Source: Shimia sp. (lineage in GTDB: Bacteria > Pseudomonadota > Alphaproteobacteria > Rhodobacterales > Rhodobacteraceae). Taken from it: a stretch of 64,000 nt of DNA. The DNA lies in NCBI GenBank assembly GCA_024224295.1, contig JAAENN010000262.1, forward strand, positions 1 to 64,000. Reading direction: 5' to 3'. Both the position numbers and the translations under genes were made by a program. The notes beneath the pieces were generated by a model. That model was not told the DNA's origin, did no database searches, and was given only the letters and a program-made list of their open reading frames with translations. Of this stretch, positions 6,799 to 58,473 are shown piece by piece. The first letter of the stretch is position 1. Each line of letters opens with the position of its first letter.

Positions 6799-9700
6799 AT
6801 GTTTTTCTTGAGCGTCCTATTGCCATTGTTGGCAGGGCTCACCGCAGGCGTTGTTGATGTAACATCCCCTGCCGATGATGACACCGGTGACGGAACGCCG
6901 GACACACGTGATGACACGGTGACCGGCGGAGATGGATCGGCGGATACGCCGGCAGACACCACGGGAGAAGTGGTCCGAGACATTGAGGATATTCTGGACG
7001 ACCTGGGATTTGGCAGCGACGCACGGGGCGACGATCCGATCTTGGCCAACCCAGGTGAAGTGATCAACGGAACGGAAGGGGAAGACACACTTCTGGGCAC
7101 TGCACAGGATGACACGATGTCCGGGGGCGGGGGGAATGACCTTTTGGAAGGGGACGCCGGAAACGATCTCCTTGAAGGGGCGGCTGGAGATGATGTGATC
7201 TTTGGGCGGCATGGCGTCGATGTGGTCAGTGGCAATGACGGCAATGACCTTATCAAAGGTGGCAAAGGCGATGACTTTTTGTTTGGGGATGCCGGTGATG
7301 ACACTTTGATTGGGTCACCTGGCGACGATGTCTTGGTGGCCGGTAGCGGCTCTGACTACCTGCGTGGCGATCAAGGCGATGATTTGCTGATCGGTCTGGA
7401 TGATCTGTCGGAAGAGACCGCGCCGGACACTTTGCTTGGGGGCATTGGAAACGACCGATTGGTCGGGGACGATGGCGATGTTCTGACAGGCGGCGAAGGC
7501 GTAAACCGCTTTGGCGTGGTCGTTGGCGGTGCACCGGTTACGATCACTGATTTCGATCTGTTTCATCCGCCAGGTGCCGAACTGGCGACGGAGTTGTTGT
7601 CGTTGCTGGATGAAGATGGAGAGTTGATCCCAAGTTATGAAATCTTGGAGAATGGTGGCCGGCTCGAGGACATTGAGGACGGAACGGGGGTTAACCTGTT
7701 CTACAATGATCAACTGGTTGCGGTGATTCACGGGTATGAAGCGCAGGATTTCCGCGCGGACTCCAACTGGTTGGGCAATTTCTCTCCAGAGCTGTCTGGT
7801 CGTTTGGATGGGGATGACCTTCTCACCGGGGATGCCGGTGATGTCGTGCGCGATGACGATATACATGGCGGCCTTGGGGACGATACGCTGATTGGCGGCC
7901 TTGGGGCTGACACGTTGGATGGTGGTGCCGGTGATGACGTGATCAATACGGTGGACAGTGTTGCCAGTGCTGAGGGGCAAGATATTGCCTTGGGTGGTGA
8001 AGGCGACGATCATCTCACCGCAATGCCGGAGACATCCTTGCCGGGCAGGAAGGGCGAGATGCCTATGATATCTACGTGCCGACCGAGGACGGCATGGCCC
8101 CAGTGGAAATTTATGGCAACGAGTTCTCGACCGAAAACCAAGAGGTGGAGTTCTTGACGCTGCTCGGAGCGGATGGTGCGCCGTTGAGTGCGGCGGATGT
8201 GGCGGAAAATCTGGTGATCTATCAGGATGAGGGCGGCACTGACGCAATATTGGAGTATGACGGCCGAATGATGGCTGTGATGCACGGTATTGAGGCCAAC
8301 CTGATCCTCGATCAAACCCTGTGGATTGGCAACTTCAACCCGTCGCCAACCACCACTGTGGCGCCGACCGCTGGCGGCAATGATGCCACGCAGATGTCCA
8401 TGACGCTGCAGAGCTCGTCGGGGACGGGTATGGTCGTGTCTCAAGAGATGTTTGGCGCCAATGCAGTCTTTAGCGTGAACACGGAAATGGGCGTGCCGTT
8501 GGAAAACTATGTCGAAGGTGCGCGGGCGCTGGACATCCAGAACTTCCGCTTCCCGGCTGGTCAGGGGGATTCCTTAGATGGCGAAAATGAGGGCGTTGAC
8601 TGGCTCAATGTGATTGAGCTGGAAGAGAACGCAGACGGTGAGATGGTCCTGCGCGAAGAGGTGCGCAATGCGCTGGATGCGGCGATTGCGGCCCATGACA
8701 CGGGGACTGATGTGAAGGTCACTATGGTGATCGCGACCAAGCTCTATTCCATTGAGGAGTATGAAGCCAAATATGACGATATAGCCCGCTTTGCCGAAAT
8801 TATGGTGACAGACTATGCGGATCAGATTGAGGCGCTTGAGATTGGCAATGAGTATTGGGCCATTGGGGAGACCTCTTATGGCACCAAAGCTGACATTGCT
8901 GCTCGAGCATTGTCCGAAGGTATGGAACGGGCTGGAGTGTCGGAGGCTGATCAGCCAAGTATCATTGTGCAGATGGCGACGCCAAACGCGGGCAGTGAGT
9001 ACCATGTCTCTGTAGATGATCGGCCGTTTGGCGAGCGACGCGACGATGCCAATCAGCACATTATTGATTTCCTGTCTGAGGAGGCGAGAGAGGCAATCGA
9101 TGGCGTGGTGGAGCATTACTACTACCGCCGCGACTATGATGAGTTCACAGGAGATGGGGACGAACAGGGTTTTATTCCCAATGATTATGCCATTTGGGAA
9201 GCCAATTTTGACAAAGAGCTCGACCTGCACATCACCGAATGGAACATCCGCACCACCAATCTGGAGCAGAATGGCATTCGTTCTGCCGGTATTCTGCCGG
9301 AGATGATGGAATACATGGTCAGTTGGGGCGCGGATGCAGCGCACGGCTGGCCGGTGGTACACAACACCACCTCAATGTTGGCCGGAACACGTTCGGATAT
9401 GCCGATCCTCAATGAGGATGGCTGGGTGGTGAATTCGGTGCGCGGCGCGACCTTTGATGTGATGTCGTCTGAGTTGGTTGGCATGCAGCTGCTGGAGACC
9501 AACTTCTCTAACGATGATGGGCGTATGGAGGTTCAGGCATATTCGACCAGCAGCAAAGTTGTGGTGCAAGTGGCCTCGCGGACGGGCGAAGCGGTTGACC
9601 TGGATTTGGACCTGTCGAGTTTGGTCTCCGGGTTTGAAAATGCCTATGGTGTAAAGGTCGGGTATGATCGTTCTGCGGATAGCTCTGACGGGGTGTATCG

Positions 9701-10544
9701 GGATGATGGCGAATACATACAGGCCGAGAGCACCATCATCGACGGTGAGCCATACTACTTCAACGAATATGACGTTCGCGCGACTGTGACGGATGTGGCC
9801 GTGGACAGCGCGGATGTGAATTTGTCGCTGAACCCCTATGAGATGGTGCAACTGGTCTTTGAGTTTGCGCGTGAATCTCCGCCCCCCCCTGTTGAAGAGG
9901 GGCGCCTAGTTGAGGGTACCGAAGGTGATGATGAGATTGTCACTGAAGGTGGAAATGATTCCATCCTTGGTCTCGGTGGCAATGACAACATTATCGCCAA
10001 TGGTGGGTTTGACACAGTACGCGGTGGCGAAGGTAATGACCGCATTGAAGGGGGCAAACAGGATGACTTCATCTATGGCGATGAAGGGGACGACGCGCTT
10101 TACGGTCACGCAGGTGATGACAGCCTGAAAGCGGGCGAGGGCAATGACAGTCTCTCAGGCAATCAGGGGGCTGACACGCTTCTTGGTAAGGAGGGCAATG
10201 ATTTGCTCCGTGGGGGCGACGACAATGACACCATGAACGGCGGACAAGGCAATGACACGCTTAAGGGCGGCGCTGGGCGTGATACCCTGACCGGGTACAA
10301 TGGGGCGGACACCTTTGCCTTTGAGCTAGAGGACATGGTGGATGGAGACATCATCACCGACTTTGAGCCGGGTAAGGATGTGATCTCACTGGACTACGAT
10401 GACATCACCTCAATAGAGGATCTCACGATTTCCCAAGTGGAGCAGGGCATTGTGATCTATGTGGGAAATTATGGTGGGATGTTGCTACAGGGAGAGCTGA
10501 CGCTGGCGCAGGTGGCGGATCCACGGAATTTCCTCTTTACTTAA
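6799..10544 (+). pseudogene. RTX calcium-binding protein with embedded glycoside-hydrolase-like domain, frameshifted
   Basis: Two frames, 6799-8157 and the one ending at 10544, make one protein of about 1,248 residues once a single base is restored near 8021-8023 (GCAATG should continue as Ala-Asn-Ala-Gly-Asp). Visible in order: hydrophobic N-terminus, acidic linker, RTX nonapeptides (about 91-200), a middle region, more RTX repeats (about 345-407), then after the break a catalytic-looking domain and a C-terminal RTX block (nt 9910-10310). The catalytic-looking part has IGNEYW (Glu codon 8850) and ITEWN (Glu codon 9237), spaced 129 residues, as in clan GH-A retaining glycosidases. Such proteins leave the cell by type I secretion. 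Whether the break is real or an assembly error is unknown. Confidence 0.7.
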
Positions 10545-10635: not shown

Positions 10636-11334
10636 ATGTCCTATTTGTTTTCACCGCCTGATGTATTTGTCATCCCTGTAGCTGGAGAGAGCGCTTCTTA
10701 TCCGGTGCGCCGTATTTTCTGTGTAGGGCGTAACTACGTGGCACATGCTGCGGAAATGGGCGGTGAGGTTGATCGAGAGGCGCCTTGGTATTTCACAAAA
10801 TCCGTGGCCCATGCGGTTCTGAGTGGCGCAGAGCTTCCGTATCCGGCTGGCACAGCGAACTACCATCACGAGATGGAACTGGCTTTCGCGCTGGGCGCGG
10901 AGGTGTTTGAAGCCAGTGAAGCGGAGGCCGCAGGGGCGATCTATTCTTATGGCTGTGCCTTGGATATGACCCGCCGGGATCGCCAGCAGGATGGCAAAGA
11001 CAATCGGCGGCCCTGGTCGCTTGGGAAAGACGTTGAAGGTTCCGCTGTATTCGCCGAGATGACCCGAGCAGAAGAGTTTGGCGCTTTGGCGGATCAACGC
11101 ATCGCGCTGGGCGTGAATGGGGAGCAGCGACAAGACGGGCGTTTGCGCGATATGGTTTGGTCACCGGTTGAAATCGTGATGCACCTTTCGAAGTTCTATC
11201 ACTTGGGGCCCGGTGACGTTGTGATGACCGGAACGCCGTCTGGTGTGGGGCCGGTGGCGGCCGAGGATGAGATTATTGGCACCATTGATGGGCTTGCACC
11301 GGTGAAACTGGCGTTGATGGTTACAAAAAGCTGA
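10636..11334 (+). CDS. fumarylacetoacetate hydrolase family protein (fumarylpyruvate-hydrolase-like)
   Basis: A 232-residue soluble enzyme of the FAH fold. Landmarks are FCVGRNYVAHAAEMG near residue 28, the metal-binding EME in HHEMELAFALG near 76-86, the QDGKDNRRPWSLGKD segment near 116, and the closing TGTPSGVGP near 197. The short single-domain length matches fumarylpyruvate or acylpyruvate hydrolases, which cut diketo acids made by aromatic ring cleavage. A good ribosome site (AAGGAG) precedes the ATG. It lies 66 bases before the reductive dehalogenase on the same strand and is probably cotranscribed, which suggests a job in halo-aromatic breakdown. The exact substrate is an inference. 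Confidence 0.85.
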   Translation: MSYLFSPPDVFVIPVAGESASYPVRRIFCVGRNYVAHAAEMGGEVDREAPWYFTKSVAHAVLSGAELPYPAGTANYHHEMELAFALGAEVFEASEAEAAGAIYSYGCALDMTRRDRQQDGKDNRRPWSLGKDVEGSAVFAEMTRAEEFGALADQRIALGVNGEQRQDGRLRDMVWSPVEIVMHLSKFYHLGPGDVVMTGTPSGVGPVAAEDEIIGTIDGLAPVKLALMVTKS

Positions 11335-11400: not shown

Positions 11401-14400
11401 ATGGGACTTAAGTTTTTTTCCGACAAGGCGCGGCCGGTTCACCTTGGCCCGTACCCAGTGGAACGACTGAAGCGGCAGGACACCGCCGCCTGGCGCAATG
11501 TGCCCGATGACCCTGTGTTGACCTTCCATCGACCGGAGCGACCCGAGAGCATTGTGAATGCTATGGGTGAGTTTCAGGCTATGATGGATGCGCTGCGCGA
11601 CGGGATGGTGAACGGCGTGCAGTCCGACATTCCAAGCGATCCTGTAGAGCGGGCCAACCACCTGAAGTCTTTCGGGTATTTCAATGATGCTTCGATTGTG
11701 GGTGTTGGGCCGTTGACGGATTCGGCGCGTCTGAAGGTGCCGCGGCGCAATCCGGATATCGACCGGCTAGCGGAGGCGCTGCGCACGCGGCAGATCAAGT
11801 CTCTCGCGGCTGGCATCGACCTGATCATGGCCGATCTCAAGGACAGCATGGAGATGCCGCCAAGCTCGATTGACGGTCATAAACATGCACTGGTGTTTTT
11901 GATTGAACACCACCGGGATCCAGAGCGCGGCGAGCCGGGCAGCGACTGGATCTTAGACGCGCAGGACCATCGCGCCTGCCTGCGGGCCACGGAAGTGGCC
12001 GTGGTGATTGCCAATTATATCAGGCTGTTGGGTTTTGGTGCCAAGGCGCATACGGCGACGTCCTCAGATGTGGATTTGGGTAAGGTGGCGCTGTCGGCTG
12101 GGCTTGTGTCTTGCGAAGACGGCACTTTGGTTGCGCCGTGGTTGGGGACACGCTTTGGCTTGGCGGTGATCACCACCGACATGGAGCTGGCCCATGATAG
12201 CGCGCTGGCACCGATGGCGGAGCAGCCGTGGTTTAAGACGCAGGGACCTGCGTGGTGGTTGGGCAAAGGATTTGCCAAATCGGCGATGAACCAAGACCCG
12301 TTCCGCAATCGGGACTATGTGAAAGGTGCGCAACCGTTTGAGCGGTTAAAGCGCGTGGAGACTCCCACAACGTACATCGATGAGGCCAATGTCGCGCGGG
12401 TGCCCAAACGTGCGGATATGTTTGCGCGGGTGCAGTTTGGCGATATGGGCAAATCGCTGCAGGACGCGGCCAAGGGGGGATACTACGTGCGCAAAGCCGC
12501 GCCGAGCATGGCGCAGCGGCGGGCTTTGGGCGCCTTTGTGCTGTTGCAGGATGGTGCAAGTGCGGATGTCAAAAAACCAACGGATTCAGAGCTTAATGCG
12601 GCGAACTTGAAAGCGGCGACCTACTTTCTGGGCGTGGATGCTGTTGGGTTGAGCCGATGTCCGGAGTGGGCGTGGTACAGCCATGACGCGACGGGCACGC
12701 CAATCAATCCGGTGCACGACAATGCGATCAGCATGATTGTGGATCAGGGGTATGAAACCATGGAGGGCGCCAGCGGGGATGACTGGATCAGCGTGGCGCA
12801 ATCGATGCGGGCTTACCTACGGTTTTCCTTGTTGGGCGGGGTGATTGCGCAGCAGATCCGCAACTTGGGCTACAAGGCCAAGGCGCATACTGTGATGGAC
12901 GGTGAGGTACTGCAGCCGCCTCTGTTGTTGCTGTCGGGGTTGGGAGAGGTGAGCCGGATTGGCGAAGTGATCCTGAACCCCTATCTGGGGCCGCGCCTGA
13001 AGTCCGGGGCGGTGACCACGGACATGCCGATGGATCACGACCAACCGATTGATTTTGGTCTGCAAAACTTCTGCGAGAACTGCAACAAATGTGCGCGGGA
13101 ATGTCCTTCCGGCGCGATCACGGCCGGCCCGAAGTTGATGTTCAACGGCTATGAGATTTGGAAGTCTGACAGCCAGAAATGTGCGACCTATCGGATTTCG
13201 ACGCCGGGTGGATCGATGTGTGGGCGGTGTATGAAGACCTGCCCCTGGAACCTTGAAGGGCTGTTTGCCGAGGCGCCGTTCCGCTGGGCGGCGAGCAATT
13301 TCCCGAGCCTTGCCAAACCTTTGGCCAAGTTGGACGACGCGGTCGGTAATGGCGGGCTGAACGACATCAAGAAATGGTGGTGGGATATTGAGCTTGAGGA
13401 AGACGGGGCCTATCGGCCCACGCAGCACCCGCTCAACCGGCGGGATTTGCAGAAAGATCTGGACCTGAAATACGAGGACCAAACGCTGGCGGTGTATCCG
13501 GCGGCGTTGGCGCCACATCCTTGGCCCTATCCGTTCCCGATGGACCGGGAGGCGGGGATTCAAGCCTATGAATCAATGGTTTCCGCCGATGAGTACAAGG
13601 TGCGAGTGGCCTCTGGCGATGACAGTGTGATTGACCGTTATGTGGTGCCGGACGCCGAGGATGCGCCGGTGTTGCAGGTGCAGATTTCGCATGTGGAGCC
13701 AATGACGGCGGATGTGACAAAGTATGAATTCCAGACCTTGGACGGTACGCCGTTGCCGGAATGGACCGCTGGTGGGCATCTGGACGTGTTGGTTGCGCCG
13801 GAGTTTTTGCGCCAGTACAGCATGTCGGGAGATCCTAAAGATCGGTCAAAGTATCAGATCGGTGTGTTGCGTGAAGACGAGGGGCGGGGCGGAAGTGCTT
13901 TCCTGCACAGGATTTTCCGCGAAGGTCGCAAGGTGTTTGTGTCCAAGCCGATCAACCATTTTGAGTTGGTCGAGGACGCGACCAAGAGCTTCCTGATGGG
14001 CGGTGGCATTGGCATCACGCCGATGATTGCCTTCGCGCATCGTTTGCATGACATGGGCCGTGATTTTGCATTGCATTATTCCGCGAGCCGTGAAGATGGA
14101 GCTGGATATATCAATGATCTCAAGGCGATGCCCTGGGCGGACAAGGTGGTGTTCCACTTCTCTGATAAAGGCTCACGGGCGGATTTGGATGCGGTACTTG
14201 GTGGCTATCAAGATGGGTGGCATGTGTACACCTGTGGGCCGGACCGGTTCATGGATGGTGTTATGCAGGCTGCAGAGCGTCAGGGCTTCCCAGACGAGGC
14301 GCGGCATTTGGAGTACTTCAATGTTCCAGAGCAGCCGGAGTATGAGAACTTTGAGTTCACTTTGAAGCTTAAGGATGGACGTGAACTTCTTGTTCCTGAA

Positions 14401-14613
14401 GATAAAATTGCCACTGACGTACTGCTCGAAAATGGCGTGCATGTGGATGTGAAATGTGCCGACGGGATTTGTGGTGTCTGCAAATGTGGGCTGGTGTCCG
14501 GTGAAGTGGAACATCGCGACTTTGTGCTGTCAAACAAGCAGCGGGAGACGTCGGTTATTCTCTGTCAGAGCCGCGCGAAAGAGGCCGGCGGGGTGATTGA
14601 AATCGACCTATAG
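11401..14613 (+). CDS. self-sufficient reductive dehalogenase fused to ferredoxin reductase (RdhA-NADPH type)
   Basis: A 1070-residue cytosolic fusion with no Tat signal. Residues 1-550 form a cobalamin-binding reductive dehalogenase region containing two related segments (compare IRLLGFGAKAHTAT near 207 with IRNLGYKAKAHTVMD near 487). The probable proton-donor tyrosine is Tyr426 in WAWYS. Two ferredoxin-type 4Fe-4S motifs follow: Cys558-561-564-568 and Cys594-607-610-614. Residues 755-960 are a phthalate-dioxygenase-reductase-like module with FMN motif RQYS (804-807) and nucleotide-binding GGGIGITP (867-874). A plant-type 2Fe-2S domain ends the protein (Cys1019, 1024, 1027, 1055). This is the architecture of oxygen-tolerant NADPH-fed dehalogenases such as that of Nitratireductor pacificus; substrates there are brominated phenols. 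Confidence 0.9.
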   Translation: MGLKFFSDKARPVHLGPYPVERLKRQDTAAWRNVPDDPVLTFHRPERPESIVNAMGEFQAMMDALRDGMVNGVQSDIPSDPVERANHLKSFGYFNDASIVGVGPLTDSARLKVPRRNPDIDRLAEALRTRQIKSLAAGIDLIMADLKDSMEMPPSSIDGHKHALVFLIEHHRDPERGEPGSDWILDAQDHRACLRATEVAVVIANYIRLLGFGAKAHTATSSDVDLGKVALSAGLVSCEDGTLVAPWLGTRFGLAVITTDMELAHDSALAPMAEQPWFKTQGPAWWLGKGFAKSAMNQDPFRNRDYVKGAQPFERLKRVETPTTYIDEANVARVPKRADMFARVQFGDMGKSLQDAAKGGYYVRKAAPSMAQRRALGAFVLLQDGASADVKKPTDSELNAANLKAATYFLGVDAVGLSRCPEWAWYSHDATGTPINPVHDNAISMIVDQGYETMEGASGDDWISVAQSMRAYLRFSLLGGVIAQQIRNLGYKAKAHTVMDGEVLQPPLLLLSGLGEVSRIGEVILNPYLGPRLKSGAVTTDMPMDHDQPIDFGLQNFCENCNKCARECPSGAITAGPKLMFNGYEIWKSDSQKCATYRISTPGGSMCGRCMKTCPWNLEGLFAEAPFRWAASNFPSLAKPLAKLDDAVGNGGLNDIKKWWWDIELEEDGAYRPTQHPLNRRDLQKDLDLKYEDQTLAVYPAALAPHPWPYPFPMDREAGIQAYESMVSADEYKVRVASGDDSVIDRYVVPDAEDAPVLQVQISHVEPMTADVTKYEFQTLDGTPLPEWTAGGHLDVLVAPEFLRQYSMSGDPKDRSKYQIGVLREDEGRGGSAFLHRIFREGRKVFVSKPINHFELVEDATKSFLMGGGIGITPMIAFAHRLHDMGRDFALHYSASREDGAGYINDLKAMPWADKVVFHFSDKGSRADLDAVLGGYQDGWHVYTCGPDRFMDGVMQAAERQGFPDEARHLEYFNVPEQPEYENFEFTLKLKDGRELLVPEDKIATDVLLENGVHVDVKCADGICGVCKCGLVSGEVEHRDFVLSNKQRETSVILCQSRAKEAGGVIEIDL

Positions 14614-23146: not shown

Positions 23147-24328
23147 TTAAGGCTCGCGAAAGGCCTCTTTGCTCTTGTAGAGCGGCTTCATCAAGTAGCG
23201 CAGGACAGTTTTGGAGCCGGTGTGCAGTTCGACCGTGGCGCGCATGCCGGGGCGGATTTCGATGGCTTTTTGGCGCTCGGTCAGCGCGTCGGCGTTCACG
23301 TTCACGGTGACTTTGTAGTAGGGCGGCGCAGATGGATCGCGTTCGTCCTCGAATGTGTCCGCAGAGATGAAATCCACTTTGCCCTTGAGGGAGCCATAGA
23401 TGGTGTAGTCATAGGCGGAGAGCTTAATGGAGGCGTCTTGGCCGGGCTCGACGTTTGCGATGTTTTCCGGGCGGACCTGAGCCTCGACAAAGAGTTCTTC
23501 ACCCAAAGGGATGATTTCAAAGATTTCTTCGCCGGGGCGCACAACGCCGCCGATGGTGGTCACGGCGAGGTTGTTGACGATGCCGCGCATAGGCGCGGTG
23601 ATGACTGTGCGAGAGAGTTGGTCTTGCGCGAGGCGCATTTCTTGGCGCAGCGAGGTGATCTCTTTCAGGGTCTCGGAGTATTCTTCAGCGAGCGTCAGCT
23701 CGGCTTGCGTAAGAATGTCCATGTAGCGAATTTCGGCCTCGGAGGCTTTCTCGCGGGCCTTGTTGACCTCCAAGAGGGCGACAAACTCTTTCTTGTAGAG
23801 GCGCTCCATGTTGGAGAGTTCTTCCTGGGCCTGTTCGAGCTGGGTGAAGGCGCCTTCGCGGCGGCTATCGATATCGGTCTGGCGGGCTTCGATCAGGGCT
23901 TTTTCAGAGGCCAGAATGCGTGGGGCGCGGGTGGCGAGGGCCTCGGGTACGTCAAATTCAAACTGGCCGTCGATCTCGGCCTCAAGGCGCAGGCGACGTA
24001 GTTCCAGCGCGTCGATCTGATCTTGTAGATCGTCAAAGGCGGAGCGGAAACGAGTGTCGCTGAGAGTGGCGAGGATTTGGCCGGATTCAACAAGGTCGCC
24101 TTGTTTGACGGCGAGGTCGGCGAGGATGCCGCCTTCGAGGTTCTGTACCGATTGAGAGCGGGAAGAGGACACGACTTGGCCGTCTGCGCGCACAATTTCG
24201 TCGACCCAGGCAAAGGCGGCCCAGATGACAAACAGCCCAACTGCGACGGCAATCAGGCGGATGGTCAGGCGGGAGGCTTTGAGTTGCTCATCAAGACCGG
24301 TTTCGTTGTCAAACTCGGATGCGGTCAT
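23147..24328 (-). CDS. HlyD family type I secretion membrane-fusion protein
   Basis: A 393-residue periplasmic adaptor with one N-terminal membrane helix (about 22-42), a lipoyl-type domain (QNLEGGILADLAVKQGDLVESGQ, 62-84), a long helical hairpin at about 100-240, and the second lipoyl half with the HlyD signature near PMRGIVNNLAVTTIGGVVRPGEEI. The ATG at 24328 overlaps the ATPase stop by four bases. With the neighbouring ABC and TolC genes it makes a complete type I secretion channel of the LapC kind. Confidence 0.93.
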   Translation of the reverse strand: MTASEFDNETGLDEQLKASRLTIRLIAVAVGLFVIWAAFAWVDEIVRADGQVVSSSRSQSVQNLEGGILADLAVKQGDLVESGQILATLSDTRFRSAFDDLQDQIDALELRRLRLEAEIDGQFEFDVPEALATRAPRILASEKALIEARQTDIDSRREGAFTQLEQAQEELSNMERLYKKEFVALLEVNKAREKASEAEIRYMDILTQAELTLAEEYSETLKEITSLRQEMRLAQDQLSRTVITAPMRGIVNNLAVTTIGGVVRPGEEIFEIIPLGEELFVEAQVRPENIANVEPGQDASIKLSAYDYTIYGSLKGKVDFISADTFEDERDPSAPPYYKVTVNVNADALTERQKAIEIRPGMRATVELHTGSKTVLRYLMKPLYKSKEAFREP

Positions 24329-26646
24329 CCTGTTGCGCCTTCGGCGAGGTGCGCGAGGACTTGTTCGCGCGGCCCATCCACCACAAGGCGGCCGTTTTGC
24401 AGGATCAACGTGCGGGTAGAGAGCGCCAAGATGGGGGTGCGGTGTGTGGCGATGAGGGCGGTGCGGCCCTCGAGCCATGTCGACAGGCGGCTGACCAACG
24501 TGCGTTCCAGTGTTTGGTCGAGCGCGGCGGTGGGCTCATCCAGCAGCACGATGCTGGGATTTTGCAGCCACAGGCGGGCCCAACCGATGGATTGACGCTG
24601 GCCGATCGACAGGCCTTCGCCGCCGTCACGGATTTGCAAATCCAACCCCTGCGGGTGGTTGCGCAGGAAGGGGCCGAGGCCCGCAAAATCGAGCGCCTGC
24701 ATCAGGCGGTCATCGTCGCGTTCGAGCTGCGTCAGGTTGAGGTTATCGCGCAGGGAACCGGCAAAAAGGCGCACGTCCTGGCTGAGGTAGCCGATGTTGC
24801 GGCGGATGTCGCGTTGGTCGATCTGGCCCATGTCTGTGCCGTCAAGCAGCACGCGGCCTTTGGTGGGGCCATAAAGACCAGCCATGAGCTTCAGCAATGT
24901 GGATTTACCGGAGCCGTTGGCACCCAAAATGGTGACTCGTTGACCGGGTTTAATGACCACGCCGGGCACATCAAGGGAGGCGCCGCTGTCTTCGTCATAA
25001 GCAAAGGACAGCTCGCGCAGTTCAAACTGGCCTTCGAGTTTCTCGCGGCGCAGGTATTTGCGTTCGCCGTCTTTCTCTTGCTCAGAAAGGGCAATGGCAT
25101 CAAGGCTTTCCAGAGCGCCTTTGACGTTGGACCAGCGGGCCAGAGTGCCAGCAAATTGGGTTAGTGGTGCCAAGGTGCGCGAGGTGAGGATGCCGCAGGC
25201 AATAATAGTTCCGACGGTGAACTCGCCAGCAAACACCAGATAGGTGCCGATCACCACGGTGGCGATGTAGGTCATCTGCTGCACGCCCTGAGACCAGTAA
25301 GTCAGGGCGGAGCTGAGGCGGCGCTGTTCGGCGGAGGAATGGCTGGAGACGGCGTTGAGTTCATCCCAGAGGCGCAGCACGCGGTCTTCGCCGCGTTGGG
25401 TTTTGACGGTGTCGAGCTCGGTAATGACCTCTTGCAGCAGGCGGCCCACTTTGGCCGAAGCGCCTTGGGTTTCGCGTGACAGGTTGATCATGCGTTTTTG
25501 CAAGACATAGGCCGGGAGCACCATGAGGACGCCGCCAAACATCAGTACCCAGACGAGGTTGCCTGCGATTGAGGCCACCAGCGCGAGGAAGATGAAGATA
25601 AACGGCATGTCCGCCAGCACCGAGATGGTGGTGGAGGTGAAGAAGTCACGCACGGCGCCGAAGTCACGCATCGCGGCAAACAGGCCGGATGGGGGCAGGG
25701 GGCGGCGGTCTGAGCGCATGCCCAGCAGGCGCTTCATCAGGCGATGCTGGATAGAGAGTTCCATGCGGCGGCCTGCGGCGTCGCTCATTTTTGCGCGGGC
25801 GAGTTTGAGCAGCCCTTCGAGGCCAATGGCGAAGATTGCGCCGACGGCAAGCACCCAAAGGGTGGCCTGAGACTGGTGTGGGATGACGCGGTCGTAGACT
25901 TGCAGCGAGAAGAGGGCGACGGCGACGGCCAGTAGGTTCGCAACCAGCGAGCCCAACATGATCTCGCCCATGTGGCGGCGGTACTTGGTGAACTCGCCCC
26001 AGAACCAGTGGCCCGACATGCCGTCCGCGATCTGCGGCACGTGGCGTTCGGCCAGTTGACGCAGAGAGACTTTGGCCCGCAGGGCAGTGCCGGAGAAAAA
26101 CGGCTCGAATTCGGTGACCGGCACTTCGGCGCGGTTGTCCGCGCAGCTGTCATCATAGACGTAGAGCGTGTCTTCGTCCTGAGAGAGGACCAGAATGGCC
26201 TGACCGTTGTTCATCATCGCCACGGCAGGCCACGCGGCCGGGGTAACCTTCATCTTGTGATGAATTTTGGGCTCAACACCTGCATGGGCGAGCGCGCCAG
26301 ACAGCGCTTTGATCGAGACATCGCCCGGCGCGTTGGTCCACATGTGTTCGGCCACGTCAGTGACCGGCACGTCTACACCGTTGAGTGAGGCCAATGTGGA
26401 GATCAGCGTAGCGCGGTGTTGAATGCGGGTGGCTGTGGCCTCAACCAGATCATGGATTGCGTCAGCGGGGGCGGTTGCAGGTTTTGGTTGCGCGGGAACC
26501 GCGACGGTTTTTGGTGTGATTTGAGCCACTTGCGGGGGAGCAGGCGTTTGGGCAGGCGCGGGCGTTTGATTGGCGGGTTTGGACGACTTTACCGCAGCAA
26601 TGGAGAGCACCACAGGTGCTTTGCCTTTGGGGGTCCCGTCGCTCAA
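24325..26646 (-). CDS. type I secretion ABC permease/ATPase (LapB-like)
   Basis: A 773-residue exporter. A Pro/Ala-rich stretch (25-65) precedes a C39-peptidase-like domain at about 70-190 that lacks the catalytic cysteine, as in LapB/RTX exporters. A six-helix membrane domain (about 215-500) and an ATPase follow, with Walker A GANGSGKST, signature LSIGQ and Walker B IVLLDE. Its ATG overlaps the TolC gene by four bases and its stop overlaps hlyD. The likely cargo is the adhesin encoded first in the operon; other RTX proteins such as that at 6.8-10.5 kb could also use it. Confidence 0.93.
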   Translation of the reverse strand: MSDGTPKGKAPVVLSIAAVKSSKPANQTPAPAQTPAPPQVAQITPKTVAVPAQPKPATAPADAIHDLVEATATRIQHRATLISTLASLNGVDVPVTDVAEHMWTNAPGDVSIKALSGALAHAGVEPKIHHKMKVTPAAWPAVAMMNNGQAILVLSQDEDTLYVYDDSCADNRAEVPVTEFEPFFSGTALRAKVSLRQLAERHVPQIADGMSGHWFWGEFTKYRRHMGEIMLGSLVANLLAVAVALFSLQVYDRVIPHQSQATLWVLAVGAIFAIGLEGLLKLARAKMSDAAGRRMELSIQHRLMKRLLGMRSDRRPLPPSGLFAAMRDFGAVRDFFTSTTISVLADMPFIFIFLALVASIAGNLVWVLMFGGVLMVLPAYVLQKRMINLSRETQGASAKVGRLLQEVITELDTVKTQRGEDRVLRLWDELNAVSSHSSAEQRRLSSALTYWSQGVQQMTYIATVVIGTYLVFAGEFTVGTIIACGILTSRTLAPLTQFAGTLARWSNVKGALESLDAIALSEQEKDGERKYLRREKLEGQFELRELSFAYDEDSGASLDVPGVVIKPGQRVTILGANGSGKSTLLKLMAGLYGPTKGRVLLDGTDMGQIDQRDIRRNIGYLSQDVRLFAGSLRDNLNLTQLERDDDRLMQALDFAGLGPFLRNHPQGLDLQIRDGGEGLSIGQRQSIGWARLWLQNPSIVLLDEPTAALDQTLERTLVSRLSTWLEGRTALIATHRTPILALSTRTLILQNGRLVVDGPREQVLAHLAEGATG

Positions 26647-27998
26647 ATCGCGTCTCCGTCTGCCAGTAGGCCCAGATCGCGGGCGAGTTCCAGTTGCGCC
26701 AGCAGCTTGTCGTATTTGGCGTCGACGCCGTCAAGGGAACGCAGCACGGATTGTTCGTAAACATCGACCACTTCGAGCACAGAGCGTTGTCCGGCGCGGA
26801 ACTGCGCCTCAAACAGCTTGTAGGTGTCGCGGCCTTCGCGAGCGAGTTGGTTGGCTTCACGTTCCTGCCGTTCCAGACTCTGGATGTTGCTTTCCAGGCG
26901 TTTGCGGTCACGTGCGCCATCTTCGCGGGCTTCGTCCACCTGACGGGCGGCGATGTCTTTGGAGGCCTCAATAGCTTTCAGGCGGTCGCCGGTGCCAAGG
27001 CCCAGGCCAACGTCATTGGAGATGTTCAGACCCGCGCTGTTGCCTTTGTTGGTGGTGCGGGCCGACGCCTTAAGACCGGGCAATTGCGCGGCGCGTTCCA
27101 CAGTAGCCTGCGCGACAGAGCGTTCGGCTTCGGCGCGGGCGCGCAGCACGTCCAGAGGTTCGACCGCCGGATAAGACTGCACGGAGAGGGAGGACACAGG
27201 TTTCAGCGTGAAAGCCGTGCCGGTCATGGCTTTGAGTTCGGCCAGCGCGGTGCCTGCGCTTTCAGAGGCGGTTTCGCTTTTGGTTTCCAACGTCTGGATC
27301 TTAGTGCGGACCATGCGAAGGTCGCCCTTGTTGGAGACACCGCCATCGACACGGCCCTTAACGATACGCTCAAAGTGATGCAGTTGGGCGAGGCCTTTGT
27401 TGCCGACGTGTGCTTTCTCTTGGCCGCGTAAGCCTTTGATATAGAGCGCTAAAGCGATATAGCTGCGTTCGTTCAGATCTTCAGAAAGGGTGACTGCGGC
27501 GACCTCGACATCGGCCGCGGCATATTCCCGTTCGGCTTTTTTGCGGCCATGATCAAACAGAACTTGTTCAAACACCAGGCCGGCGATCACGTCGCTGAGC
27601 GTATTAAGGGAGATTTCCGGGCTAAGTGTAGGAAGCCAGTTTTTGTTTTCGGCCTGTGCCCGCAGTTTGGCGGTTTGCAGTTGCGCCTCCGCAGAGCGGC
27701 GTGAGGATGTCAAAGCCACGTCGGCCACGTTCCCCATTGTGCTGTCGGTTGGAATGACCGAACGGCGGGCCAGAAGTGTGGTGAGGATTTCGCTTTGGGT
27801 TTTTGCGTCCGCGTCCTGCTCAAAGCTGGTGCGTTTGCTCACTTCAGCGGCAGGCTCGGCCCCTTCGGGTTTGGCCTTCAGCAGACCCAGAGGCTTGCTT
27901 ATGTCTGGCAGGTGCTCGCTCATATTGGCCATGCAGCCGCTCAGGAGCGTGGCGCCCAAAAGTAAAGGCAGGCTGGATGTCAGTGAGCGGCGGGACAT
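26643..27998 (-). CDS. TolC family outer-membrane channel lipoprotein
   Basis: A 451-residue outer-membrane efflux protein. It begins with a lipoprotein signal, LLGATLLSGC, giving Cys22. The rest is long alpha-helical coiled-coil sequence with internal duplication (compare SRRSAEAQLQTAKLRAQAENKNWLPTLS near 100 with AEAERSVAQATVERAAQLPGLKASA near 300), the TolC pattern. It begins 66 bases after the adhesin stop, past a strong hairpin, and overlaps the ABC gene by four bases. It supplies the outer-membrane duct of the type I system. Confidence 0.9.
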   Translation of the reverse strand: MSRRSLTSSLPLLLGATLLSGCMANMSEHLPDISKPLGLLKAKPEGAEPAAEVSKRTSFEQDADAKTQSEILTTLLARRSVIPTDSTMGNVADVALTSSRRSAEAQLQTAKLRAQAENKNWLPTLSPEISLNTLSDVIAGLVFEQVLFDHGRKKAEREYAAADVEVAAVTLSEDLNERSYIALALYIKGLRGQEKAHVGNKGLAQLHHFERIVKGRVDGGVSNKGDLRMVRTKIQTLETKSETASESAGTALAELKAMTGTAFTLKPVSSLSVQSYPAVEPLDVLRARAEAERSVAQATVERAAQLPGLKASARTTNKGNSAGLNISNDVGLGLGTGDRLKAIEASKDIAARQVDEAREDGARDRKRLESNIQSLERQEREANQLAREGRDTYKLFEAQFRAGQRSVLEVVDVYEQSVLRSLDGVDAKYDKLLAQLELARDLGLLADGDAI

Positions 27999-28033
27999 AG
28001 TGGCAGCGGTAATCCGGAGCTAGAAAGGTGCAA

Positions 28034-28054
28034 GGGGCGGCCTGTGGCCGCCCC
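28034..28054 (-). terminator. hairpin between adhesin and secretion genes
   Basis: GGGGCGGCC (28034-28042) and GGCCGCCCC (28046-28054) form a perfect nine-bp stem with a three-base loop, ten bases beyond the adhesin stop. The following minus-strand bases are only weakly U-rich, so read-through into the TolC, ABC and HlyD genes is expected. Confidence 0.65.
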
Positions 28055-28063
28055 AAACGATCA

Positions 28064-31000
28064 TCAGATGATGACGTTGATGTCTTGGTCAACGATCAGG
28101 GTCACGCCGTCATTGCCGACGGTGTAGACGTCGTAGGACTCGCCCTCGATGTCTACGGTCTGGTTGGTCTTGGTCGCATCTGAAACCGTGATCTGATCAT
28201 CCGCGCCACCATGGATCGTGAGCGTGTCAGAGGTGTCTGACATGTCTTTGATCTGTGCTTCGGTCAGGGTCAGATTTGCGTCAGAGGCATAGTCCAGCTC
28301 GATGCCTTCGATGTTGAAGTTGCCGGCCGCGGCGTGTCCGATGGATCCGGCGTTGCCAACGTTGTCATCCAGTACCAGTAGCGTGTCGGACTGGTTGCCG
28401 GCGTTGTCGGTCGACGCGATCACCAGGTGGGTGCCGTCTGAGGCTTCTGGATTGAGCACGAAGAGCGATTGGTCGCCGCCAAGAGGAACCTCAGTAGTGG
28501 CCAGCTCCGACGTGGTACCGTTTTGATGTAGCGCGTGGATTTCATAGTCTTGCGCTTCGGTGTTGAGCGACACAGAGGTGACATCGTCATCTGCGAAAGT
28601 GACCGATTGCACCACAGGGTTCGTGATTTCGGTGTCGACTTGGAAGTCTGCGGATGCTGTCGCGGTGTTGCCTGCTGCGTCCGTCACCGAAAGGGTGGCG
28701 TTTGCAGTATAGGTGCCCTCAGCCAATGCGCCATTTTCGTAAGTGACAAACCAGTTCCCAGATGCGTCAGACGTGGTGCTGCGCACCACACCATCCACGG
28801 TGACAACCACTGCGGAGTTTGGCTCCGTTGTGCCTTCCAAAACCACACCGCCTTGCATCTGTGCGGCGTTCACCGGTGCGGCAAAGACGCCTGCGGACAA
28901 GTCCACGTTGATGGAGGTGGACGTGTCGACACGAACCGTCGATGTTGCTGTGGCGGTGTTGCCCGCGGTGTCCGTTGCTGTGACAGTCACTGGCGCGTCG
29001 TATTCGCCCTGCGGAATGTCAGCTGCGGTAAAGTTGGCAACCCAGGTGCCGTTCGCCGCGGCTGTGACCGTGCGGGAGGCACCTGCGATTTGGACAACCA
29101 AAGTGCTGCCTGCATCCGCGGTGCCGGTAAGGCTTAGGCCGCCGGCAACCTCAGCGGCGTTGGCGATGTTGTCGCCACCCGCCTGATTGGCATCAATCGC
29201 GGCAGACAGCTCTGTGTCCACCGAGACTGTGGAGGTGGTGGTCGCGGTGTTGCCTGCGGTATCGGTTGCGGTGATTGAGACCGTGCTGTCGTAGGTGCCC
29301 TGCGGAATGTCTGCCGCGGTAAATGTGGCAGCCCAGGTTCCGTTGGCAGCAGCAGTGACGGTGTGTGTCACGCCTTCCATCGTTACCGAGACTGAGGCGC
29401 CGGGTTCTGCGGTGCCGGTCAGCGTAAAGCCACCGGTGACCTCAGTTGCGTTGGCAGTGTTGTCGCCGCCAAGTTGGGAAGCATCAAACCCTACAGACGT
29501 TTCAGTGTCCACGCGGAAGCTGTCAGATGTGGTGGTGACATTGCCAGCCAGATCGGTTGCAGTAACTGACACGGTGGAGTCATAGGTCCCCTGTGGGATT
29601 TCCCCAGCGGCAAAAGTGGCCGACCAAGTGCCATCGCCTGCGGCGGTCACAGTGTGGGTGACGCCCTCAACGGTGACGGCCACAGAGGAGCCCGCTTCGG
29701 CTGTGCCGGTTAAGTTCAGGCTTGCAGCCGCCTCGGCGGCGTTCACGATGTCATCGCCTGCAATCGGGGCCGTGATGGTCGCGAGACCGTCGGTGTCGAT
29801 TTGTACAGCGAAGGTTTCCGTGTGGCTGTTTCCGGCCAGATCGGTCGCGGTGATAGACACAGTGCTATCGTAGGTGCCGGTGCCGATGGCGGAAGCATCA
29901 AAGGCTGAAGACCAAGTGCCGTCGCCTGCCACGGTGACAGTCTGAGTCACGCCTTCGAATTGGATTGAAAGCGATGATCCAGGCTCACCGGTGCCAGAAA
30001 GTACAACGCCATCAGCCGCTTCCGCGGCGTTGATGATGTTGTCGCCTTCTACTGTACCCATGGCGACACCAGGGGCAATTGTGTCAACCTGCAGAGTGTC
30101 GGTCACGGTGGTGACGTTGCCACGTGTGTCCGTGGAGGTGATGGTAATGTCGGTTGTATATTCGCCGGTGGCTAAGGCTGTGGAATCAAAGGTCACGGAC
30201 CATGTGCCATCGTCGAGAACGGTGGTGGTTTGTGTTGTGCCGTCAATTTCCACTGTCAAAGATGCACCCGCTTCGCCGGTGCCGCTGATGACGTGGCCAG
30301 TGGTGTGCTCTTCTTCGTTAACTATGTCACCGGTGGAAACCGTGCCATCCATTACAGATACATCAGGAGGTGTCGTGTCGATGTCCACTGACGGGCCGTC
30401 TAGGTCATGCACGACGCCTGCCGGAGATTCTACAGTTACGGCAACATCATAGGCACCGTCATCGGGTAGGCCGGCCGGATCAAACACGACCTCATAGGTT
30501 CCGTCATCCCCGATCACACCTGTGCCGGTTTCGTCGCCGATTGTCACGGTGACGGTAGAGCCAGGCTCGCCGGTACCAGTGATTGTTACGCTGTCGTCGC
30601 CAGTGCCGCCAACTTCGCGCGGCACATCCGCATCATCAACCGTGGGGATGGCTTCTCCACCGCCGCCACCGCCGCCACCAATGCCGGTGGCCACAACCGC
30701 CGCACCGCCTGCGCCGAGCAAACGAGGGACCAAACCTGCCAGCGGCGCCGCCAGAGGGGCAACCACAGGCTCCACGCGCTCCAGGTCCAGAAACGTGAGT
30801 TGGTCGTATTCGCTCCATTTATCGGTCATGGAGACAGTGTCATACTGCGCAAAATACTGATCGTTGATTGGGTCTCCAAGCTCCACCATCTGCACCTGAC
30901 CATCTTTGGACAGAAGCAACTCGCGCTCATCGTCGGTGAAGTAATTTTCGAGGGTGATGGTCTCGCCATTCACCAGATGGATCACCAGGTCACCGCCGTC

Positions 31001-31150
31001 ATTCACATAACCAGCCACTTCCGCAGGGGTCAGGTTTAAGGAGATGTGCGAAGCATGCTGTGAGCTGATGGTGCCATTGGCGGCTTCAGTTGTTTGGCCG
31101 CGTACAACAACTCCGTCCGTACCGCGGACGGCATAACTATAACTACTCAT
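28064..31150 (-). CDS. large surface adhesin with Ig-like repeats (BapA/LapA type)
   Basis: A 1028-residue protein. Residues 1-130 match the BapA-type prefix (VRGTDGVVVRGQT, then a strand-rich domain ending in LTFLDLERVEP). A Leu/Ala segment and an eight-glycine hinge (about 132-165) follow. Seven tandem Ig-like domains of about 95 residues occupy roughly 180-870, each with GTGEPGS or GTAEAGS, DGTW and TATDxAGN motifs. A further partial repeat and a C-terminal beta-rich domain (from about 930, LTEAQIKDMSDTSDTL) complete it. No classical signal peptide is present; export would use the adjacent type I system via the C-terminus. It is much shorter than LapA. Confidence 0.88.
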   Translation of the reverse strand: MSSYSYAVRGTDGVVVRGQTTEAANGTISSQHASHISLNLTPAEVAGYVNDGGDLVIHLVNGETITLENYFTDDERELLLSKDGQVQMVELGDPINDQYFAQYDTVSMTDKWSEYDQLTFLDLERVEPVVAPLAAPLAGLVPRLLGAGGAAVVATGIGGGGGGGGEAIPTVDDADVPREVGGTGDDSVTITGTGEPGSTVTVTIGDETGTGVIGDDGTYEVVFDPAGLPDDGAYDVAVTVESPAGVVHDLDGPSVDIDTTPPDVSVMDGTVSTGDIVNEEEHTTGHVISGTGEAGASLTVEIDGTTQTTTVLDDGTWSVTFDSTALATGEYTTDITITSTDTRGNVTTVTDTLQVDTIAPGVAMGTVEGDNIINAAEAADGVVLSGTGEPGSSLSIQFEGVTQTVTVAGDGTWSSAFDASAIGTGTYDSTVSITATDLAGNSHTETFAVQIDTDGLATITAPIAGDDIVNAAEAAASLNLTGTAEAGSSVAVTVEGVTHTVTAAGDGTWSATFAAGEIPQGTYDSTVSVTATDLAGNVTTTSDSFRVDTETSVGFDASQLGGDNTANATEVTGGFTLTGTAEPGASVSVTMEGVTHTVTAAANGTWAATFTAADIPQGTYDSTVSITATDTAGNTATTTSTVSVDTELSAAIDANQAGGDNIANAAEVAGGLSLTGTADAGSTLVVQIAGASRTVTAAANGTWVANFTAADIPQGEYDAPVTVTATDTAGNTATATSTVRVDTSTSINVDLSAGVFAAPVNAAQMQGGVVLEGTTEPNSAVVVTVDGVVRSTTSDASGNWFVTYENGALAEGTYTANATLSVTDAAGNTATASADFQVDTEITNPVVQSVTFADDDVTSVSLNTEAQDYEIHALHQNGTTSELATTEVPLGGDQSLFVLNPEASDGTHLVIASTDNAGNQSDTLLVLDDNVGNAGSIGHAAAGNFNIEGIELDYASDANLTLTEAQIKDMSDTSDTLTIHGGADDQITVSDATKTNQTVDIEGESYDVYTVGNDGVTLIVDQDINVII

Positions 31151-50451: not shown

Positions 50452-50778
50452 ATGACAGAACATTTCACGCCTTCGGGTGGACGCGTACTAGACCAAGAAT
50501 TAGACGCGCTGCAACTTATGTTGCGGCGGGTGACGGGCGAGCTGGAGCGGATGAAAATTGCGTTGCAACGTGACGGGCCGTCAGCCACCGCAGCGGGGCG
50601 GCGGGTCTTGGCCGAGGTACGGCAGTGCATGCGATTGGCGCTATTGGTGGAGAGAGACATTGACCAGCGCACCGCAAAAGGCAATTCAGCAGGATACTCA
50701 CAGCTTAATCTCGACGCCGCGCGATCTTCGATCGGGCGCCGCTTGGATCGCCTCCGAACCGCGCGCAGTACAGAGTGA
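50452..50778 (+). CDS. GTA small terminase (gp1)
   Basis: A 108-residue protein with helical content (VLDQELDALQLMLRRVTGELERMKIALQR, then RRVLAEVRQCMRLALLVERDIDQR). Size and position match the first gene of the Rhodobacter capsulatus GTA cluster, whose product acts as small terminase. The ATG at 50452 (MTEHFTPSGG) is chosen; a GTG further up has no support. The gene overlaps the large terminase frame. Assignment leans on position, since the sequence itself is poorly conserved. Confidence 0.75.
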   Translation: MTEHFTPSGGRVLDQELDALQLMLRRVTGELERMKIALQRDGPSATAAGRRVLAEVRQCMRLALLVERDIDQRTAKGNSAGYSQLNLDAARSSIGRRLDRLRTARSTE

Positions 50779-52069
50779 GTTTTTGGACAGCCTGACGGAG
50801 GGGGAGCTTTTGGCGCTCCCCTTTTTGTTTGAGTTCTGGGCTATGCCGCATCAGTTGCCGCCAGAAGGTAACTGGAAGACCTGGGTGATCCTTGGTGGGC
50901 GCGGGGCGGGTAAGACGCGGGCCGGGGCCGAATGGGTGCGGTCGATGGTGGAGGGGGCCAGACCGCTGGATGCGGGGCGCGCACGGCGGGTGGCTTTGGT
51001 GGGTGAAACCATTGATCAAGTGCGTGAGGTGATGATTTTTGGCGAAAGTGGCTTGATAGCCTGTGCGCCGCCTGATCGACGACCAGTTTGGGAGGCGGGG
51101 CGGCGGCGATTGGTATGGCCGAATGGTGCGGTGGCGCAGGCGTTTTCAGCGCATGACCCGGAGAGCCTACGCGGACCTCAATTTGATGCAGCTTGGGTCG
51201 ATGAGCTGGCGAAATGGCGCAACGGGCAGGAGACCTGGGACATGTTGCAGTTTGCGCTGAGGTTGGGGGAGAACCCGCGCCAGGTGGTGACCACGACGCC
51301 GCGCAATGTGGATGTGTTGAAGCGATTGTTGACGGCGACAACAACAGTGCAGACCAGCGCGCCTACGCAGGCCAATCGCGCCAATCTCGCGGAGAGTTTT
51401 TTGGCGGAAGTCGAGGCGCGTTATACAGGCACACGGTTGGGCCGGCAGGAGCTTGAGGGCGTTTTGATGGAGGACGCCGAAGGGGCTCTCTGGACACGGG
51501 CGCAATTGGATGGGTTGCGATGTGAGGACCTGCAGGAGATGGACCGGATTGTGGTGGCGGTGGACCCGCCGGTGACTGGTCATGCGGGCAGTGATGAATG
51601 CGGGATAGTTGTGGTTGGCGCGGTCACAAAAGGTCCAGTGCAAGACTGGCGCGCCTACGTGTTGGATGACGTGTCAGTGCGGGCCGCCACACCAGATGCC
51701 TGGGCGCGTGTGGCGTTGACGGCGATGGAGACCTGGGGGGCAGAACGCCTTGTGGCGGAGGTCAACCAAGGCGGCGATCTGGTGCAGCCGGTGATCAATC
51801 AGGTGGACCCGCTGGTGCCCTTTAAGGCGGTGCGGGCCACACGAGGCAAGGTGGCGCGGGCGGAGCCAGTGGCTGCGCTTTATGAACAGGGGCGGATTTT
51901 ACATCGAGCTGGGCTTGGTGATTTGGAAGATCAGATGTGCCTGATGACAGCGCAGGGCTTCGTGGGGGCAGGTAGTCCGGATCGTGTGGATGCACTGGTT
52001 TGGGCCTTGCATGAATTGATCGTGGAACCGTCCGCCCATTGGCGCCGCCCGCGGTTGCGTGAGCTGTAA
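50660..52069 (+). CDS. GTA large terminase (gp2)
   Basis: A packaging motor of about 469 residues. Walker A is GGRGAGKTRAGAEW (about 76-89 from the proposed start), Walker B lies in FDAAWVDELAKW, and the nuclease domain begins near DRIVVAVDPPVTGHAGSDECGI with acidic residues Asp and Asp. I propose the TTG at 50660 because GGAG stands seven bases upstream, within gp1; later alternative starts near 50783 or the ATG at 50842 cannot be excluded. It packs host DNA into the particle at no specific site. Confidence 0.88.
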   Translation: MTSAPQKAIQQDTHSLISTPRDLRSGAAWIASEPRAVQSEFLDSLTEGELLALPFLFEFWAMPHQLPPEGNWKTWVILGGRGAGKTRAGAEWVRSMVEGARPLDAGRARRVALVGETIDQVREVMIFGESGLIACAPPDRRPVWEAGRRRLVWPNGAVAQAFSAHDPESLRGPQFDAAWVDELAKWRNGQETWDMLQFALRLGENPRQVVTTTPRNVDVLKRLLTATTTVQTSAPTQANRANLAESFLAEVEARYTGTRLGRQELEGVLMEDAEGALWTRAQLDGLRCEDLQEMDRIVVAVDPPVTGHAGSDECGIVVVGAVTKGPVQDWRAYVLDDVSVRAATPDAWARVALTAMETWGAERLVAEVNQGGDLVQPVINQVDPLVPFKAVRATRGKVARAEPVAALYEQGRILHRAGLGDLEDQMCLMTAQGFVGAGSPDRVDALVWALHELIVEPSAHWRRPRLREL

Positions 52070-52200
52070 GGCAACAGCTGCGCGCGGTTAGAACGCTTCA
52101 ATTTAAGAAAAATCCTTCAGAACTGTTTTTGTCCAAAGCGGACAGAATGAGATGAGCAGGTCGCCAGAGAGGTGACGCAGAGATCCGGGAGCGGCAGAGC

Positions 52201-53385: not shown

Positions 53386-53605
53386 TCCGCGATACGGTTT
53401 CGAGAGTTTTGACTGCGCGCCGGGCCTGCGGCTTGAAGCGCATGAGAGGGTGGCGAAGTTGCAGTTTGAGAGTTTGAACCGGCGTTTGGACAAGATCGAG
53501 CAGTTGATTGAGCGGTTAGAGCGGCGGTTGTGGCTAACGGTGTATGGTGTTGTCGGGGTGATCCTGGCGCAGGCGTTTCAGTCGATTTTAGATGTGACGC
53601 CATGA
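53378..53605 (+). CDS. GTA small protein gp3.5
   Basis: A 75-residue protein between portal and protease genes. It has a helical segment (RVAKLQFESLNRRLDKIEQLIERLERRLWL) running into a hydrophobic helix (LTVYGVVGVILAQAFQSIL), so it may be membrane associated. The ATG overlaps the end of the portal gene and its stop overlaps the first possible protease start. Orthologous small genes are annotated at this position in roseobacter GTA clusters; the role is unknown. Confidence 0.75.
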   Translation: MGDPRYGFESFDCAPGLRLEAHERVAKLQFESLNRRLDKIEQLIERLERRLWLTVYGVVGVILAQAFQSILDVTP

Positions 53606-53619
53606 GTGAGGAGTGTGTG

Positions 53620-54165: not shown

Positions 54166-54190
54166 GCGCCAGAACAAAAACGGGAAGTCA

Positions 54191-55369: not shown

Positions 55370-55374
55370 GCTGA

Positions 55375-56865: not shown

Positions 56866-56879
56866 TTTGGAGAGACACC

Positions 56880-58464: not shown

Positions 58465-58473
58465 GAGGTGAGC

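Follow-up and report, generated by a model that had tools for sequence, protein, structure and literature searches.

The window analysed here, 64,000 nucleotides of a Shimia sp. genome (contig JAAENN010000262.1, positions 1 to 64,000), carries rdhA, a gene for a self-sufficient catabolic reductive dehalogenase (RdhA). Its open reading frame (ORF) is complete from ATG to stop, with AAGGA, which resembles a ribosome-binding site, 5 bases before the start, and its GC content of 0.578 is near the 0.572 of the window. General domain scans, in which no RdhB model was searched, identified the flanking genes as an FAA hydrolase and a MarC-family membrane protein.

Table 1 Features of the rdhA locus and of the encoded protein, in window coordinates.
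Feature	Position	Strand	Basis
FAA-hydrolase-family gene	10636..11334	+	66 bp upstream of rdhA; nearest FAA-family and putative fumarylpyruvate hydrolases
rdhA, self-sufficient catabolic reductive dehalogenase, 1070 aa	11401..14613	+	ORF, profile and structure-sequence matches
Vestigial first copy of the cobalamin-binding half	11638..12198	+	Weak second TIGR02486 match, 40.4 bits
Phe341 (NpRdhA F291)	12421	+	Invariant, 45/45
Catalytic cobalamin / two 4Fe-4S half	12712..13347	+	Main TIGR02486 match, 162.9 bits, over cut-off
Ser468 (NpRdhA S422)	12802	+	Invariant, 45/45
Met469 (NpRdhA M423)	12805	+	Invariant, 45/45
Tyr472, proposed proton donor (NpRdhA Tyr426)	12814..12816	+	Invariant, 45/45
Lys534 (NpRdhA K488)	13000	+	Invariant, 45/45
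First 4Fe-4S motif, C558-x2-C-x2-C-x3-C568	13072..13104	+	45/45 rows
Second 4Fe-4S ligands, C594 and C607-x2-C-x3-C614	13180..13242	+	45/45 rows
Arg598 (NpRdhA R552)	13192	+	Invariant, 45/45
FMN/NAD(P)H reductase domain, phthalate-dioxygenase-reductase type, aa 757-975	13669..14325	+	
2Fe-2S ferredoxin domain, aa 993-1060	14377..14580	+	PF00111, 35.7 bits vs 21

PF13486 matched neither the encoded protein nor the controls, and the NCBIfam reductive dehalogenase model TIGR02486 was used as the search model instead. It matches the protein in two stretches, at 201.1 bits against a cut-off of 160.35; the separate scores of the two stretches in Table 1 come from the search of the protein's own genome. 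Pfam profiles identified 4Fe-4S and 2Fe-2S domains. By sequence, the best structure matches of the RdhA part are 4ras and 6zxu (E ~1e-153), both of NpRdhA from Nitratireductor pacificus, and they cover an initial stretch reaching residue 106 and then residues 159 to about 730. A predicted model of the protein aligns with NpRdhA residues 3-697. Residues 757-1067, the reductase part, find their best structure match in phthalate dioxygenase reductase (2pia, E 6.5e-51). A reading of the sequence, with no signal-peptide predictor run, found no twin arginine (Tat motif) before residue 115.

Judged by these matches, the protein is a fusion of a catabolic RdhA, made up of a vestigial first half and a catalytic B12 half, with a phthalate-dioxygenase-reductase (PDOR) module, whose flavin would be FMN rather than FAD. 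It combines the features of catabolic RdhA-PDOR fusions, namely a core with two 4Fe-4S clusters, a duplicated domain, the reductase module, the catalytic residue set and no Tat signal, and it lacks the Tat signal peptide expected of respiratory RdhAs of the PceA and CprA type. An initial annotation of this DNA had described the ORF as a dehalogenase and reductase in one polypeptide without a Tat signal, and both points are confirmed here by the profiles and structures covering the two modules and by the absence of RR before residue 115. The oxygen tolerance that it proposed is plausible by analogy with NpRdhA and with JtRdhA, an enzyme from Jhaorihella, which we take to be a roseobacter.

NpRdhA positions were transferred to the window protein through a sequence alignment with the NpRdhA structure, and conservation was scored in 45 aligned proteins (the window protein, 26 genome loci and 5 plasmid loci with named hosts, and 13 further genome loci). 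The residues listed in Table 1 and all eight 4Fe-4S cysteines are kept in every one of them, as are cysteines 1019, 1024, 1027 and 1055 of the 2Fe-2S domain, while C1029 varies. The position of NpRdhA A419 is variable (V in 37, C in 5, S in 2 and T in 1). The roles of Y426, K488 and R552 of NpRdhA are taken from the available part of PMC7565698, and those of active-site residues also from that of PMC10463259. The expectation that the catalytic residues would align is thus borne out by Y472, K534 and R598. Tyr426, named as proton donor by the initial annotation, is correct in NpRdhA numbering and not as a local residue, the donor here being Tyr472; local residue 426 is also an invariant tyrosine, located within WAWYSHD and away from the proton-donor site.

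Distribution and relatives of the fusion protein

Enzymes of this kind had been annotated as rare, which does not hold for this family. From a reading of the search rows, rdhA occurs in 112 of 295 family genomes (294 genera); at E 1e-30, 169 of the 295 match, many through the reductase module only, and 112 carry the RdhA part. The accessible part of PMC13101508 likewise calls bhbA homologues widely distributed in the Roseobacter clade. The closest relatives from named hosts are mostly Shimia proteins (83-96% identity), besides one from an unassigned Rhodobacteraceae metagenome-assembled genome (MAG; 97%), in agreement with the annotation of a catabolic self-sufficient RdhA in a roseobacter. 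Proteins 69-71% identical also occur in MAGs labelled Flavobacteriales and Granulosicoccaceae (L120, L127), through transfer beyond Alphaproteobacteria or binning errors. At two loci (L162, L217), from genomes with a stated completeness of 99%, the RdhA frame is split in two, reflecting decay or sequencing errors.

Full-length copies were found by tblastn in 8 of 9 matching plasmid records, from Ruegeria, Tritonibacter (2), Jannaschia, Yoonia, Aminobacter, Nitratireductor and Comamonas. Carriage by phages was rejected, since RdhA was not found in viral contigs and the 7 matching phage records align in the reductase module only. A quick maximum-likelihood tree of 47 rows was rooted on NpRdhA and L036, both long branches of unsure placement. 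In this tree, the window protein joins Shimia with support 100, and BhbA of Comamonas and the Nitratireductor OM-1 protein separate from all other fusions. L036 (3480-5681) encodes a 733-aa NpRdhA-like RdhA without a reductase, about 37-42% identical, in a small incomplete family genome (G033).

The window's genome encodes a single RdhA; one further weak TIGR02486 match (29 bits) is presumably QueG. CobN (cobalamin synthesis), the 4-hydroxybenzoate hydroxylase PobA and PcaH are over their cut-offs in this genome, with pobA beside pcaH on contig C118, and homogentisate dioxygenase is present.

Proposed debromination and competing explanations

Among known systems, JtRdhA from the marine Jhaorihella thermophila (WP_104007082), published in 2023, has a matching description: the same domain order, duplicated cobalamin domain, reductase fusion and key residues, and no Tat signal. 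It debrominates with NADPH, in air as well, and its best substrates are 3,5-dibromo-4-hydroxybenzoate and 3-bromo-4-hydroxyphenylacetate, while chlorinated analogues only inhibit; the same source, as far as available, reports the reductase domain in most catabolic RdhAs and includes Ruegeria, Tropicibacter and Pseudovibrio in its tree (PMC10463259). The window protein differs from it in host, gene context and possibly substrate range. BhbA, encoded on plasmid pBHB of Comamonas sp. 7D-2 (L051), is 48.7% identical end to end, with the same architecture and active-site residues; its gene, however, lies on a conjugative plasmid near ligA and related genes, and the protein belongs to a separate clade. 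NpRdhA, in contrast, has no fused reductase. Ros_A3X954 of Roseobacter sp. MED193 is likewise an RdhA of a Roseobacter without a Tat signal, and it debrominates 2,6-dibromophenol and is reported to be highly oxygen-sensitive; its 4Fe-4S motifs, however, are at 283-345 rather than 558-614, and no reductase domain is described in the accessible part of the source (PMC13101508).

The window protein is very probably a cobalamin-containing enzyme that reductively debrominates ortho-bromophenolic compounds at the expense of NADPH, and as such a new ortholog of an already characterised enzyme type. This assignment is based on full-length homology to BhbA, domain homology to NpRdhA, the invariant active-site residues and 4Fe-4S cysteines, and the NADPH-driven debromination by JtRdhA, an enzyme of the same architecture, and it draws also on the presence of CobN, PobA and PcaH in its own genome and on the adjacency of pobA to rdhA in some relatives. 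Homology to JtRdhA and BhbA also supports organobromine as the likely target, as initially annotated. The physiological substrate is suggested by homology and by the gene neighbourhoods of some relatives, in which bromo-hydroxybenzoates are best supported.

The cofactors, electron path and chemistry of the observed domains and residues are proposed by analogy with NpRdhA and JtRdhA. NADPH would reduce the FMN of the C-terminal reductase, and single electrons would reach cobalamin via the 2Fe-2S domain and then the two 4Fe-4S clusters. Bromine of the substrate would face the cobalt while Ser468, Lys534 and Arg598 grip the phenol oxygen, and Tyr472, with Lys534, could donate a proton to the ring carbon while bromide departs. 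A debrominated product of the 4-hydroxybenzoate type might then be handed to PobA and protocatechuate dioxygenase, both encoded elsewhere in the window's genome.

Gene neighbourhoods were compared at the 112 family-level loci, over about 8 kb per side where contigs allowed. They vary, and a family-wide conserved operon around rdhA was rejected. pobA lies within 400 bp of rdhA at 3 of the 112 (247 bp convergent, 362 bp divergent and 90 bp co-directional), where about 0.05 such linkages (within 500 bp, 86 genomes with both genes) would be expected by chance; chance figures here are Poisson estimates assuming even placement in a 4.1 Mb genome. The same closeness is seen at the named loci L102 and L124, and pobA or pcaH is near rdhA at 5 of 85 named and plasmid loci (L051, the BhbA locus; L053; L068, with pcaH; L102; L124). 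On the BhbA and Nitratireductor OM-1 plasmids pobA is 2.3 and 3.4 kb from rdhA, with Lig-type genes. Genes of a CoxM/CoxS/CoxL-type molybdenum hydroxylase, a possible second hydroxylation route, are directly downstream of rdhA in 19-25 of 106 loci, some genomes being counted twice; RdhA at these loci is 74.7-79.8% identical (representative, L089 13310-17175, a Ruegeria).

Several points weigh against the proposed debrominase role. In the window, rdhA has neither pobA nor a Lig or sulfatase gene next to it, 109 of the 112 family-level loci are without pobA or pcaH in the stretch covered, some of them ended by contig ends, 26 of the 112 RdhA genomes are without PobA at E 1e-150, and the AlphaFold model is weak exactly around the cofactors.

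An enzyme whose gene mostly stands alone in changing neighbourhoods could instead serve detoxification, removing halogen from toxic bromophenols of algae or sponges under MarR-type control and with no obligate downstream pathway. A MarR-type regulator, of a family in which phenol sensing is common, is indeed the commonest neighbour, at rank -1 in 15 of 112 loci by profile search; MarR_2 is matched by 13 of the 45 co-directional upstream genes and by 3 of the 52 divergent ones. Such a gene is not beside rdhA in the window, however, and the adjacent pobA, Lig genes, transporters and sulfatases of some relatives argue for carbon use; we regard pure detoxification as rather doubtful. Less probable still is a two-gene operon in Shimia with the upstream FAA hydrolase, in which the debrominated compound would enter ring cleavage, the hydrolase would split the resulting acylpyruvate-type product, and the substrate might not be a 4-hydroxybenzoate. 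The short distance, the shared strand and the best PDB matches of the upstream protein favour it, and among the 80 named loci an FAA hydrolase is within 150 bp upstream of rdhA at 11, where the identity of RdhA is never below 82.9%; this amounts to 11 of the 14 loci with an identity of about 82% or more. Yet it is missing beside rdhA in two other close relatives, Shimia marina (L059) and L064, and lies 6.5 kb away in L065. Outside the genus a homologue is seldom near, within four genes at only 5 of the 112 family-level loci, two of them of this genus, and a family-wide partnership was rejected. Specificity in the FAA family is hard to assign from sequence, and gentisate cleavage as the downstream route was rejected, with no gentisate dioxygenase found in the window's genome.

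The chemistry could also lie elsewhere, in chlorinated or iodinated phenols or in non-halogen C-X cleavage, with debromination incidental. JtRdhA accepts iodophenols, according to the part of the source consulted (PMC10463259), and the A419 position varies across the 45 proteins; the phenol- and halide-binding residues are conserved, however, and the chlorinated analogues tested were not turned over by JtRdhA, which together make this explanation quite improbable. With the debrominase assignment preferred, the presence of rdhA in over one third of the sampled family genera, some with neighbourhoods that point to concrete natural substrates, means that the question of what aerobic marine bacteria use such dehalogenases for becomes addressable by growth on the suggested substrates.

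Sulfatase-linked loci of relatives and further genes of the window

At 8 of 80 named loci (L103, L106, L109, L110, L124, L125, L132, L134), a sulfatase gene lies upstream of rdhA and is co-directional with it. Its product is close to 4upl, a structure presumably from Silicibacter pomeroyi (E 1.4e-233 with the copy at L109 and 2e-218 with that at L106). The eight loci represent about four lineages: L106, L124 and L134 (with L119) form one clade with support 100, and Aliiroseovarius accounts for L110, L125 and L132. The 112 family-level loci include close copies with the same orientation at L151, L188 and L213, the first two apparently from the same genomes as L103 and L106, and a 58% copy is on the opposite strand at L049. 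The nearest copies are 183 bp (G064), 1.6 kb (G137), 2.9 kb (G251), 5.2 kb (G176) and 7.8 kb (G081) from rdhA, where chance would place about 0.43 within 8 kb.

In the Nitratireductor MAG of L124, the sulfatase gene is followed by a short-chain dehydrogenase gene, rdhA and pobA; the first two are 17 bases apart, the next pair overlaps by 4, and 49 bases separate rdhA and pobA when counted to the longest frame. At L106 (HIMB11), the sulfatase comes before a metallohydrolase that carries the alkylsulfatase dimerisation domain of Pfam, and TRAP-type transporter genes, a dehydrogenase and rdhA come next. At L134, a Paracoccaceae MAG, rdhA is preceded by LigA, LigB, a weakly matched Gfo/Idh-type dehydrogenase, the sulfatase, the metallohydrolase and a dehydrogenase, and followed by a PIG-L protein, LigK, 4-oxalomesaconate tautomerase and an amidohydrolase. 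The protocatechuate 4,5-cleavage set of this locus, which comprises LigA, LigB, LigK and the tautomerase, is over the respective NCBIfam cut-offs. The L134 dehydrogenase adjoining rdhA is nearest to coniferyl-alcohol dehydrogenase (227.9 bits, below the cut-off of 242), and the nearest solved structures of the metallohydrolase are the alkylsulfatases YjcS and SdsA1.

A single-protein search at E 1e-120 detects the sulfatase in 82 of the 112 genomes with RdhA and in 54 of the 183 without it (odds ratio 6.5, P 2e-13), compared with 86 and 108 for PobA (2.3) and 94 and 130 for the choline sulfatase BetC (2.1) as controls. The odds ratio remains 5.6 after stratifying by PobA and BetC; these statistics treat genomes as independent and ignore phylogeny and genome size. 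Copies at least 70% identical occur in 40 genomes, 30 with RdhA and ten counted as lacking it, including one with an RdhA fragment (G160).

These linkages suggest that the substrates in some roseobacters are naturally occurring sulfated bromophenols. The red alga Vertebrata lanosa has yielded lanosol-4,7-disulfate, according to the accessible part of PMC9322897. Breakdown of such a molecule would need two kinds of sulfatase, aryl-type and alkyl-type, together with a benzylic-type alcohol dehydrogenase, a debrominase and protocatechuate cleavage, to which the genes of these loci would putatively correspond. The sulfatases would strip the ring and benzyl sulfates, the alcohol dehydrogenase would oxidise the side chain, RdhA would take off bromine, and PobA or protocatechuate 4,5-cleavage would lead to ring opening. 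We tentatively propose, at less than even confidence, that RdhA in marine alphaproteobacteria is the dehalogenating step of such a widespread undescribed route feeding on bromophenols of the lanosol-disulfate type, of which Shimia would keep the RdhA step only, taking desulfated bromophenols. Against it, the sulfatase and the metallohydrolase pass no NCBIfam cut-off, and their aryl and alkyl specificities are therefore only predicted. At E 1e-120, neither the window's genome nor its genus neighbour G210 has such a sulfatase.

In a literature search outside which most subscription journals lie, no paper treating lanosol together with a reductive dehalogenase was found, and none linking bromophenol, sulfatase, bacteria, red alga and dehalogenase by title or start of abstract. 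The terms reductive dehalogenase, rdhA and debromin are absent from the main text of a paper on macroalgal halogen metabolism (PMC10919026). If true, the route would be a sink for algal organobromine without a description in the literature searched.

Elsewhere in the window, an RTX-repeat calcium-binding protein is encoded at 6799-10544 in two overlapping frames (452 and 822 aa); its L059 counterpart is one frame of 1248 aa, and the split reflects a frameshift or a sequencing error. Consecutive genes at 50558-59993 match terminase large subunit, portal, capsid, DUF2460 and phiJL001 gp84-type Pfam models and presumably form a gene transfer agent cluster of the kind that Rhodobacterales usually carry. 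At 23147-31150, HlyD-type, ABC transporter and outer-membrane efflux genes stand beside a 1028-aa BapA-prefix/Ig-like repeat protein, an arrangement that probably serves type I secretion of a large adhesin.

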